Position numbers and translations under genes: made by a program
Shown here: piece after piece, positions 3,841 to 56,189 of the stretch
Numbering within the stretch: position 1 is the stretch's first letter
How the letters are laid out: each line of letters opens with the position of its first letter
Assembly (NCBI RefSeq): GCF_900177045.1
Contig: NZ_LT841358.1
Coordinates: 1,141,396 to 1,205,395 of the forward strand
Direction: 5' to 3'
Length of the DNA stretch: 64,000 nucleotides
Source of the DNA: Candidatus Nitrosotalea okcheonensis
GTDB taxonomy: Archaea; Thermoproteota; Nitrososphaeria; Nitrososphaerales; Nitrosopumilaceae
Notes under the pieces: generated by a model
Told to the model about the DNA's origin: nothing
The model's database searches: none
What the model saw: the letters and a program-made list of their open reading frames with translations, nothing else

Positions 3841-4686
3841 TTACCAGTCACCCCCAACGTCACGGATAATCAGATTCCATGCTTCTAGCCACTTGTTCTT
3901 GTGCTCATACATAGATGGTAGAAAATAATGCTTTTGAGAGATATTTCCTCGTCTGCCCTGCATAAACTCAGCCAACAAAGGGTCTACTTTACCAGAATTA
4001 ATAGTAAAGTTAAGCTTTCGTAAAAATCGTATTTCATACCCCAGTATTCGTTTATTCAAAAATGTATAGACGGCTTTACTCGTCTTAAAATCAATTTTGT
4101 TATGAAGTAATGGATGACAATATACTGCATTAGATTTCTTTGTTCCCCGATCCCAAAATAACTCCATTATGCCGTCATTACATAACACAGTATGATTGTT
4201 AAATGCCCTAAGTGCCTCCTCTGTCCGTAGTCCAGATACTAGCACAAATAATGAGAATATCTTGTGCTTGTAAGGTAACTTTTTGATTGAATCCAACACG
4301 TCCTCAAGTTTTATTCTATTAGATAGACTGTAATTGTTAACAGTAGATTTTGTAGTCCATTTGATCTCTTTACGTTTTAACCAATGGGTAAATTCATCAT
4401 GAAAGTAACTGTCGTATCGGATATCCATATAACGAGTAAGATTGGCAATTGCCTTCAGTACGTCTAGTTTTTTCCTAGTAGACTCTAACGATATGAGATC
4501 ATCAGTAAAAGCTAGATCATTGTATTTCAGCGAATAGTCCAGCATCACATATGCATAGTGTTTTTGTTTTTTTGCAACGAGCCATGATTTGTAATCTTCC
4601 CAGTTTAGATCTTTGACACAAGTCCTAAATCGTTGTACAGTTGTATTAGTAGTATTATTGCTTCTGCAAAGCGAATCTATAGGGGT
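3841..4686 (-). pseudogene. SSV-type tyrosine integrase, C-terminal part int(C)
   Basis: The frame is open from 4686, inside the tRNA half, to 3841. An ATG at 4548 is available, but coding-like sequence precedes it (FRTCVKDLNWEDYKSWLVAK). Catalytic features of archaeal tyrosine recombinases are present: Arg in SGLRTEEAL, a basic cluster EIRFLRKLNF, and the GRRGNISQKHYFLP segment with the candidate nucleophile Tyr. In SSV-type elements attP lies inside the int gene, so integration splits it into int(N) and int(C). A frame that begins exactly at a tRNA half and reads into the element is the int(C) arrangement. The matching int(N) should be left of the window. Confidence 0.75.
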
Positions 4687-45597: not shown

Positions 45598-45611
45598 TTT
45601 ACAATTGTAAG
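45598..45611. promoter_or_regulatory. Operator palindrome TTTACAATTGTAAG
   Basis: Near-perfect copy of the core of the 22-base palindrome at 46591. It lies between an AT box (ACAAAATTT, about 27 bases before TTG 45618) and the start, covering the transcript start region: repressor geometry. Confidence 0.6.
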
Positions 45612-45617
45612 ATATTA

Positions 45618-46115
45618 TTGTTTAATATCGCAGGTTCTAGACAGAAAGCATTGGAAAAGAAAAAAACATTCGTCATAGTTGGTATAATCATTACTGCTCT
45701 TATGGGAGTTATAGTTGCTACGGAAATGAAACCTACTACAGACAGCATGATGTCAAATGATAAACCGATTTTGTTACACATTCATCCACGTTTGTATCTA
45801 AATGTAGATGGCAAGCCATATTTTGTGCCTCAAAATGTAGGAATAGAACCAGATCTGTGGAAAGATCACACACTTGACCAGTATGGCATGAAGGGAATGG
45901 CTCCATTACATACACATACAGCTGATGGCATGATCCATGTAGAATCAACAATAGTTAGAAATTACACGCTTGGTGAATTTCTAGACATTTGGGGACTTGA
46001 TTTGAAAGGAAAAATAATCAGTGTAGCTGTATATGGTGAGCCAATATCAGATTATAGAAATCACATTTTAAAAGATGAAGAATCTATAATCATGAACATA
46101 ACATCGAATCAATAG
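45618..46115 (+). CDS. His-rich membrane-anchored extracellular protein
   Basis: 165 residues, TTG start. Membrane anchor about 17-35 (FVIVGIIITALMGVIVATEM). Outer domain rich in His: LLHIHPRLYLNVDGK, VPQNVGIEP, PLHTHTADGMIHVES, TLGEFLDIWG. The HxH pairs suggest copper or another metal. Shares an operator palindrome with the TRASH regulator, so it is likely a member of its regulon. Confidence 0.7.
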   Translation: MFNIAGSRQKALEKKKTFVIVGIIITALMGVIVATEMKPTTDSMMSNDKPILLHIHPRLYLNVDGKPYFVPQNVGIEPDLWKDHTLDQYGMKGMAPLHTHTADGMIHVESTIVRNYTLGEFLDIWGLDLKGKIISVAVYGEPISDYRNHILKDEESIIMNITSNQ

Positions 46116-46128
46116 AGTATAGAAGATT

Positions 46129-46566
46129 CTATTTGTTGGAAAGTGATTCTATTCTACCACGATATTTTTCCTTGTACAGTGCCTTGCATGATGAACAACA
46201 GAAAAACCTTTCTTGGTCACCCACTTTCAGTATGCTAGGCTTGCTGTGGGTTGGTCCATTGCAATAATCACAGGTGATCTTTACAAGCATTCCCTTGTCT
46301 AACTTTATCTTATGTACCTTGAGTGTCTTGTATTTTATTTGATCTAGTTTTGCGCTTGTTTGTATCTCCATTTTTCCAAAATCTAGATCTACTGAGACTC
46401 CTTTGATTAATCCAATATTTACAAGTCTCTCGTAATGTAGTTGTACAGTAGGAGTGCTAACCTTTATCTCTCTTGAGATTTGTCGAAACGACTTTCGTCC
46501 ATCCTTTACAAGAGACTCTAGTAGTGCAAGATCAATCTCATCTATCTTTAGAGGCATGATTAACAT
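46129..46566 (-). CDS. AsnC-type HTH with C-terminal TRASH-like metal domain
   Basis: 145 residues (ATG 46566 or 46557). Residues 8-60 are an AsnC/Lrp-like HTH (IDLALLESLVKDGRKSFRQI, then SREIKVSTPTVQLHYE). Residues 95-140 carry CDYCNGP and FFCCSSCKALYKEKY, a TRASH-type site as in archaeal copper-responsive regulators such as Sulfolobus CopT/CopR. Likely a metal sensor. A perfect 22-base palindrome stands before its own gene (autoregulation) and its core before the His-rich gene. Confidence 0.8.
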   Translation of the reverse strand: MLIMPLKIDEIDLALLESLVKDGRKSFRQISREIKVSTPTVQLHYERLVNIGLIKGVSVDLDFGKMEIQTSAKLDQIKYKTLKVHKIKLDKGMLVKITCDYCNGPTHSKPSILKVGDQERFFCCSSCKALYKEKYRGRIESLSNK

Positions 46567-46590
46567 ACATGCAAAGCCTATTTGAAAGCT

Positions 46591-46612
46591 GATCTTTACA
46601 ATTGTAAAGATC
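46591..46612. promoter_or_regulatory. Perfect 22-base palindrome before the TRASH regulator
   Basis: GATCTTTACAA/TTGTAAAGATC, 25-46 bases before the regulator start. An AT-rich CTTATTATCC-like box lies just beyond it, so the palindrome sits at the transcript start. The core recurs at 45598. Confidence 0.7.
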
Positions 46613-46829
46613 GGATAATAAGTATCCTTTAACCGTAATTACGGTGGTCATGGAGACACTACAGTCAGCACAGAACAGGGTCAGACAAAGCATATTGCAT
46701 TAAAGATATGTAGCATGCACTGTGCAGGATATATGTTAATTCTATCCAGAATCATGTCACAGAGATCAGGATAGGAAAAATGAGATCTACAAACATGGAT
46801 ATATTTGTAGTAACTGGAAGGAGAAAACA

Positions 46830-47114
46830 ATGATGTTATGTAACTCTAAAATGAGCAAGAGTAAGAAAATTACGATATTAGTAGTATCATTTCTTACATC
46901 CATTGGTTCGACATATTTTGCATTTACTCTGCATAATCCTGCTTTAGTTGTTGTTGCTCCAGTACTTCTTGCTTTTCTTCCATGCCTAATCATGTGTGGA
47001 ATTGTAGGAGGATCGATGTGGCTAGTTCCTAGATTCTCAAAAAATAAAAACCAATCAGCTTGCAATTGTGGATTGGATCACCCTACAAAACAAAAAGAAA
47101 CACAGCAAAATTAG
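46830..47114 (+). CDS. Small Cys-rich membrane protein
   Basis: 94 residues. Two membrane helices (ITILVVSFLTSIGSTYFAFT; VVVAPVLLAFLPCLIMCGIV) then a tail with CNCGLDHP. Ribosome site AAGGAG 6 bases before the ATG. Cys at helix 2 and the CxC tail suggest metal handling next to the TRASH regulator. The stop shares TTAG with the convergent YHS frame. Confidence 0.6.
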   Translation: MMLCNSKMSKSKKITILVVSFLTSIGSTYFAFTLHNPALVVVAPVLLAFLPCLIMCGIVGGSMWLVPRFSKNKNQSACNCGLDHPTKQKETQQN

Positions 47115-47257
47115 ATCTTGAACTTTGAGGGGTCTTTATCAAATCTTGATTTGCAATGCGGACAACAAAAATAGATCTCTTTTCCGCCAATCTTGGATTT
47201 TACACTTGATTCATTTTCATCTACTTCCATTCCACAAACAGGGTCTTGCCAATTATG
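47111..47257 (-). pseudogene. YHS-domain protein with damaged start
   Basis: The frame reads WQDPVCGMEVDENESSVKSK and then IYFCCPHCKSRFDKDP, a full YHS/TRASH-like metal-binding module. In frame there is no ATG, GTG or TTG before DPVCGM; a TGA stands at 47258-47260. One base inserted after GGCAAG would join it to an upstream frame. Internal ATG would give 39 residues without DPVCG. Either a frameshifted gene, an unusual start or a sequence error. Confidence 0.5.
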
Positions 47258-47359
47258 TCACTATTTACTTATTGCTAGAACTTGAATTTAAGAATGATAT
47301 TTTACATTTGTGAACATATTTTCTCAAATATCTCAATTAGGCAATAATTTCTTAATTTA

Positions 47360-55538: not shown

Positions 55539-56189
55539 TTAATCCCATTTGGACCAAGCTGCCATCCACCTGTAAGTCCATGTTGTGAGTTTAGTTCCTA
55601 ATGCAGTCATTGTTACTGTCAAAACTGCACCAGCTCCTGCACCCAACGCAACGGGACTATCATAGAACTTTCCTACTTGGGGTTCTATTGGTGTCATGTA
55701 TGGAGGCAATGTGGTTCTCGGGTATTTGAAAGCCATCTCAAGAGGATCATCTATTGTGATTAGATTGATCATGTTGAACAACGACATGGACATGCCACAA
55801 AGTACACCACCGATTAGGATCAAAGAGTGTTTGTTTCTCTTTGTTGCCCAATATGCCAAATCCATCAATATTGCTGATGGAATCCACATTGGCACAACGA
55901 TGAAGCTGTATGGATATCCTAAGGAAAACCACGCACCTTTTGCAATCCATGTATACACTGTCATAATGAGTGCATAGTATGTTGCGGTTCCTGGCACGCC
56001 AGTGAACGTAAGGTAATATGCTGCACCGACTGCGAGCATCAATGATTGTGATAGTGTAAATATCACATAAGATGTCCATGCCCAATCAGTGTAGAATATG
56101 TAGTCTCCTGCGTTGATTGTCAACAAGGTTGAGTTGACTGCTACCACTACTATGAATAAGTAGTGAGTACATCGTCTTAGCCAGACCAT
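55539..56189 (-). CDS. amoA: Ammonia monooxygenase subunit A
   Basis: 216 residues, full-length archaeal AmoA: begins MVWLRRCTHYLFIVVVAVNS, ends YRWMAAWSKWD; TIEPQVGKFYDSPVALGAG-type block near the end (with MTPIEPQVGKFYDS). About six membrane helices. Membrane part of the copper enzyme that oxidises ammonia to hydroxylamine. Own TATA box, leaderless. Confidence 0.98.
   Translation of the reverse strand: MVWLRRCTHYLFIVVVAVNSTLLTINAGDYIFYTDWAWTSYVIFTLSQSLMLAVGAAYYLTFTGVPGTATYYALIMTVYTWIAKGAWFSLGYPYSFIVVPMWIPSAILMDLAYWATKRNKHSLILIGGVLCGMSMSLFNMINLITIDDPLEMAFKYPRTTLPPYMTPIEPQVGKFYDSPVALGAGAGAVLTVTMTALGTKLTTWTYRWMAAWSKWD

Follow-up and report, generated by a model that had tools for sequence, protein, structure and literature searches.

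The window (the whole 64,000-nucleotide stretch analysed here) belongs to an archaeal genome of 1.97 Mb, whose closest named relatives, judged by the regulator, are Nitrosotalea. The locus contains a CopR/CopT-type regulator gene, a gene for a His-rich membrane-anchored protein, a copA remnant, a small membrane protein gene, a frame for a YHS/TRASH mini-protein and three copies of one palindrome (Table 1). An earlier note, made from the sequence alone, had reported the palindrome at 46591 and 45598; both sequences are read there and are the top two motif matches in the 64-kb window. The weaker copy at 47301 was missing from that note's list.

Table 1. Positions of the palindromes and genes at the window locus
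Feature	Sequence	Position	Strand	Description
Palindrome 1	GATCTTTACAATTGTAAAGATC = GATC-TTTACAATTGTAAA-GATC	46591..46612	.	0 mismatches; centre 44 nt 5' of regulator start
Palindrome 2	TTTACAATTGTAAG	45598..45611	.	1 mismatch; centre 46 nt 5' of His-rich gene
Palindrome 3, weaker	TTTACATTTGTGAA	47301..47314	.	2 mismatches; before YHS/TRASH mini-gene
His-rich membrane-anchored protein		45651..46115	+	TTG start; one TM helix and beta-rich outer domain
CopR/CopT-type regulator		46129..46557	-	AsnC/Lrp winged HTH and C-terminal TRASH (C-x2-C ... C-C-x2-C); ATG 46557
copA remnant	RIGKMRSTNMDIFVVTG (internal fragment)	46658..46818	+	N-terminus (TKxxALKIxxMHCAG..VNSIQNHVTEI) joined to internal fragment; rest deleted
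Small membrane protein		46830..47114	+	81% identity to L084 1149-1403 product
YHS/TRASH mini-protein frame	DPVCGMEVDENESSVKSKIGGKEIYFCCPHCKSRFDKDPSKFKI	47135..47236	-	no in-frame start; looks frame-broken

The regulator scores over cut-off for the Pfam families HTH_AsnC-type, TRASH_HVO_1752_C and Arc_trans_TRASH. Its N-terminal AsnC/Lrp HTH reaches 38.4 bits with PF13404, for which the cut-off is 27, and its C-terminal TRASH domain is over cut-off with PF08394 and PF24273. The start of the regulator was re-read as ATG 46557 (MPLKID...) from the operator spacing and the homologues, and that of the His-rich protein was re-read as TTG 45651 (MEKKKTF...). The first-ORF starts, 46566 and 45618 respectively, would have masked the promoter spacing. 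Measured from the re-read starts, the palindrome centres lie at the distances given in Table 1, with TATA-like boxes about 19-20 nt away, which bears out the earlier note's placement of both copies at promoters.

The His-rich protein belongs to a family in which His43, 45, 87, 89 and 96 are invariant in the alignment. Its single TM helix is N-terminal. Its model has a pLDDT of 82, with block means above 90 over residues 41 to 150, so that the beta-rich domain is modelled with confidence. Sequence searches of Pfam, NCBIfam and PDB returned no relative, and the fold search returned none below E = 0.001, with weak beta-grasp-like matches only. From the histidines and the operator, we infer that it is a copper-binding envelope protein. 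The organism is one of the ammonia-oxidizing archaea (AOA), which rely on copper enzymes both to oxidize ammonia and to respire. The earlier note had assumed that the organism's key enzyme uses copper, and an archaeal amoA is found within the window (55596-56144, minus strand); the second archaeal amoA copy of this genome is at C1:795135-795683.

A decayed copA-copR pair and a second cluster

The copA remnant was identified by tblastn with the CopA of four relatives (L084, L085, L086 and L089) and by its flanks, which on either side are syntenic with L084 at the nucleotide level. The small membrane protein gene lies directly 3' of copA in L084 and 3' of the copA remnant in the window. Two close relatives, Nitrosotalea sp. 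FS and one other (L084 and L085), have this regulator in divergent orientation to an intact copA; after the regulator comes the His-rich gene, preceded by the same TTTACAATTGTAAG site. Because the copA remnant is present and its flanks are syntenic with the intact L084 locus, the window locus is, as judged by sequence, a decayed copA-copR pair, and on the same reading palindrome 1 is the former operator shared by copA and the regulator. The identical 21-22 bp of palindrome 1 are kept in L084, L085 and L086, and the one-base variant TTTACAATTGTAAG is kept in L084 (4949) and L085 (4958). The link between the regulator and the His-rich protein through one palindrome, drawn in the earlier note, holds at the sequence level, with a copy before each gene and the same variant before the His-rich gene of relatives.

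The analysis goes beyond the earlier note in three respects: the decay of the window locus, a main regulon 630 kb distant and the presence of two paralogous regulators. In the second cluster (C1:547-559 kb), an intact copA is divergent from a second Lrp-TRASH regulator, with the palindrome exactly in between. The two regulators are 61% identical, and C99, C102, C123, C124 and C127 are the same in both. Divergence from copA, a CopR/CopT trait, is found for the paralogue and most relatives, while the window regulator faces the copA remnant only. Further genes with the site in this cluster encode a His-rich paralogue (45% identity to the window protein), two YHS/TRASH mini-proteins, a YtkA-like Met-rich protein, a rhodanese and a membrane protein. 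An intact homologue of the window's YHS/TRASH mini-protein, with its own operator copy, is found at L031 ~3856-3993. A third His-rich copy (HisRichC; L031 14183-14790, minus strand) is broken over reading frames and has an exact operator copy just 5' of it. For both HisRichC and the YHS frame of the window, the breaks may reflect either pseudogenes or assembly indels.

The identity of the signal was also considered. Several metals can be bound by TRASH domains, and thiol-redox proteins are numerous among the targets, with DsbD/TlpA/DsbA genes located within the second cluster, as might be expected of a zinc, silver/mercury or general thiol-stress regulon. However, the intact ATPase is of the P1B-1 (Cu/Ag) type, both by family score (TIGR01511, copper-translocating ATPase, over cut-off) and by its CPC, YN and MxxSS motifs, and the site in relatives also precedes cupredoxins and a multicopper oxidase. 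A signal other than copper is therefore very unlikely. Across the loci, sites were seen before genes for DsbD, cupredoxins, multicopper oxidase and an HtrA-like protease.

Distribution of the palindrome

Genome statistics were taken from a motif search with a reversed control and from selected stretches. Exact TTTACAATTGTAAA has four copies in its own genome and exact TTTACAWWTGTAAA has six, versus none for the reversed control in either case. When one mismatch was allowed, the pattern was about as frequent as its control (35 genomic matches versus 29), so weak sites alone carry no weight. All exact copies outside the window are in the single cluster at C1:547-559 kb. The cluster sites are intergenic, whereas each inspected one-mismatch site outside the two clusters lies inside a long ORF. 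Where a start codon could be assigned to a cluster site, it lies 44-54 nt away, measured from the centre of the palindrome; three cluster sites (L031 13256, L031 14798 and window 47301) have no start codon at this distance. The earlier note had proposed a genome search for the motif, and its outcome contradicts a random spread, with good sites in the two clusters only.

Conservation was examined in 55 loci from named genomes of Nitrosotalea, Nitrosotenuis, Nitrosarchaeum and Nitrososphaeraceae, which were fetched by the regulator protein alone. Exact TTTACANNTGTAAA was found 5' of the regulator in 38 of the 51 loci with readable upstream DNA, and at least 11 of 12 positions were matched in 42 of the 51. 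An unbiased count of inverted repeats 5' of the regulators ranked the same palindrome first, and the arrangement of divergent copA and regulator genes with the palindrome between them recurs in many AOA genera. In 364 kb of these protein-chosen loci, TTTACA-NN-TGTAAA has 71 copies, versus 12 for the 59 other half-site permutations together. Among the spacings of these half-sites, spacer 2 accounts for the 71 copies, while spacer 0 occurs once and spacer 3 never.

The pattern might also arise by chance or from AT-rich repeats and have no regulatory role, as the genome is AT-rich and a search with three or fewer mismatches gives 22 window matches versus 13 expected. This explanation is refuted by the reversed-control and permutation counts: all genome sets have few or no copies of the reversed control, and permuted half-sites reach only the total given above. 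In addition, the sites are intergenic and at a fixed distance from their genes.

The palindrome was then compared with the presence of the regulator in 175 genomes of two AOA families. The 84 regulator-positive genomes have 318 copies (28 for the reversed control), and the 91 regulator-negative genomes have 80 (27 for the control). A rank test of copy number against regulator presence gave p = 1.5e-17, with phylogeny ignored. Order-wide, in 221 genomes, the site is abundant where the regulator is found. Some relatives (G125, G129, G149 and G181 of genus g34, L200 and L201) have 11-17 palindrome copies. Nitrosopumilaceae without a regulator match have 78 palindrome copies versus 25 for the controls; another regulator or an undetected homologue could possibly account for these.

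Three observations count against a regulon run by the TRASH regulators. First, about nine of the 51 regulator relatives lack it. Secondly, one to four copies are kept in some genomes without a detected regulator. Third, one palindrome is common to two paralogous regulators, either of which may be the one that acts. The palindrome might instead be bound by another factor, a CopY/BlaI-type repressor or CsoR, with the TRASH regulator merely nearby. The copies kept without a detected regulator would fit such a factor, CsoR-like proteins are encoded in the genome itself, and the exact 14-mer is contained in the copB and yahC sites of Lactococcus lactis, which bind a CopR of the CopY family (PMC7253601). 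However, copy number follows the TRASH regulator, and the regulator's own promoter carries the site in most genomes. A CopY-type binder was rejected, since a PF03965 search of the genome was empty and the same search was positive in the Lactococcus lactis control. CsoR as the binder is unsupported, as the palindrome is absent near the CsoR-like genes. At C1:725969-727907, a frame-broken CsoR-like gene adjoins another P-type ATPase gene, and the palindrome is absent there also. A factor other than the TRASH regulator is thus most unlikely.

The earlier note's suggestion of a metal-responsive regulon is supported by the confinement of good sites to two copper-type clusters, by the conservation of the site before the regulator and by the copper-type targets. 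On this sequence evidence, Lrp-HTH/TRASH regulators, of the CopR/CopT type of archaea, very probably control a copper regulon with TTTACAATTGTAAA as its operator.

Promoter layout and proposed mode of action

With promoters aligned on the palindrome, 34 of 38 have a TATA-like box on the copA side whose centre is 19 nt from that of the palindrome. For the regulator side, most TATA boxes fall 12-19 nt from the palindrome centre, and 44-45 nt is the commonest distance between this centre and the regulator start codon. Several promoters have the palindromic site directly 5' of BRE, with the TATA-like box at 19 nt and the start codon at about 45 nt from the centre. Because of these TATA and start distances, the transcripts are probably leaderless and the palindrome probably ends at BRE. 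A first placement of TATA 5' of the palindrome (a repressor layout) was ruled out by the re-assigned starts and the aligned promoters, in which TATA lies between palindrome and gene.

The P. furiosus CopR site is likewise directly 5' of BRE, and this regulator occupies it whether or not copper is present and is an activator in vitro (PMC7830388). Since the AOA site ends just 5' of BRE/TATA and its placement matches that of a regulator which stays bound and activates, activation is the first choice, and the bound regulator most likely activates rather than represses. A regulator dimer would sit on the palindrome via its winged-HTH domains, and excess Cu(I) on the TRASH cysteines would alter its contact with basal factors, with activation directed outward both ways at divergent promoters. 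The targets would be copA, the regulator itself, the YHS/TRASH mini-chaperones, envelope proteins rich in His or Met and the thiol system of DsbD/TlpA/DsbA. Of the two copA-copR loci, the one in the window has lost its copA by deletion, and the regulator, operator and His-rich protein that are left there would now be satellites of the intact C1:547-559 kb cluster.

The same regulon could also be run by a repressor that blocks TFB at BRE and is loosened by Cu(I), as in bacterial CopY. The palindrome reaches 7 nt to either side of its centre and there borders on the expected BRE, the regulator-side TATA distances agree with such a block, and the operator equals that of Lactococcus CopR, where the mechanism is release by copper (PMC7253601). 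However, the site is 5' of BRE/TATA at a fixed spacing and not over TATA or the transcript start, and copper does not release P. furiosus CopR from its site, which has the same placement. Repression is thus somewhat unlikely, and activation is preferred. In Nitrososphaera viennensis, CopA2, whose gene is beside a CopT gene, is upregulated under Cu limitation (PMC7785015), which runs opposite to a simple efflux-induction model. Overall, TTTACA-NN-TGTAAA is highly likely to serve as the operator for a copper-homeostasis regulon under Lrp-HTH/TRASH control, for which we infer the binding, the copper signal and the activation.

Comparison with known copper regulators

Archaeal CopR/CopT traits include copper-dependent control of copA and an octamer on DNA. 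This type of regulator is already known, as is its role with copper, and the distinctive part is the operator; neither this operator nor this regulon in AOA is reported in the literature searched. With its fixed spacing, the operator would make the copper-defence regulon readable from any AOA genome, and it names candidate copper proteins of unknown function, such as the His-rich family and the YHS mini-proteins. Nitrosotalea sinensis was the most copper-sensitive among the test strains of a 2026 growth study (PMC13003922).

The CopR of P. furiosus (PF0739; Lrp HTH and TRASH) resembles the AOA regulators in its domain pair, its divergence from copA, its site directly 5' of BRE, its several scattered targets and its half-site TTnnCA (PMC7830388). 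However, its consensus TTNNCAWWWTGNNAA has 15 bp with a 3-nt centre and is semi-palindromic, whereas the AOA palindrome, TTTACA-NN-TGTAAA, is strict and has 2 nt at its centre; the 15-bp consensus is a trait of the P. furiosus site and not of the whole CopR/CopT family. In addition, P. furiosus CopR has a His-rich tail and the AOA regulator has no His tail (PMC7830388).

The CopT of Sulfolobus and Nitrososphaera viennensis is the same regulator type adjoining a copper ATPase (PMC7785015). N. viennensis has three CopT genes with the operator unassigned, and its Cu-limitation motif TTCSGSMTTTGWACYANT is unrelated to the AOA palindrome (PMC7785015); no match was found when the Cu-limitation motifs were compared with it. 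The Haloferax HVO_1752-type TRASH regulators are alike at the domain level, with the C-terminal TRASH domain over cut-off for PF24273.

TACA/TGTA is read by many HTH proteins. The Gram-positive CopR/CopY cop box (TACANNTGTA; RNYKACANNTGTMRNY) has the same 14-mer and the same biological role (PMC7253601), and TACANNTGTA is found before copper genes in the AOA loci. The string TTTACAATTGTAAA had a sole match in 5.39 million full texts, the same article on the CopR-CopY operator (PMC7253601). Lactococcus CopR is of the BlaI/MecI type (PF03965), which is unrelated to Lrp-TRASH. The outer bases also differ: G..C flank the 14-mer in Lactococcus, while in AOA it is mostly preceded by C and often followed by G. 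The match is either convergence of two unrelated HTH families or a coincidence favoured by the common reading of TACA/TGTA; operator convergence is likely. The match is a warning that a regulator should not be assigned from the site alone. The chances are about even for the wider proposal, in which the Lrp-TRASH regulators of AOA and the BlaI/MecI-type CopR of Lactococcus converged on the same 14-bp operator, which in AOA would define a copper regulon spanning the class, with a new five-histidine membrane family among its copper-binding components.
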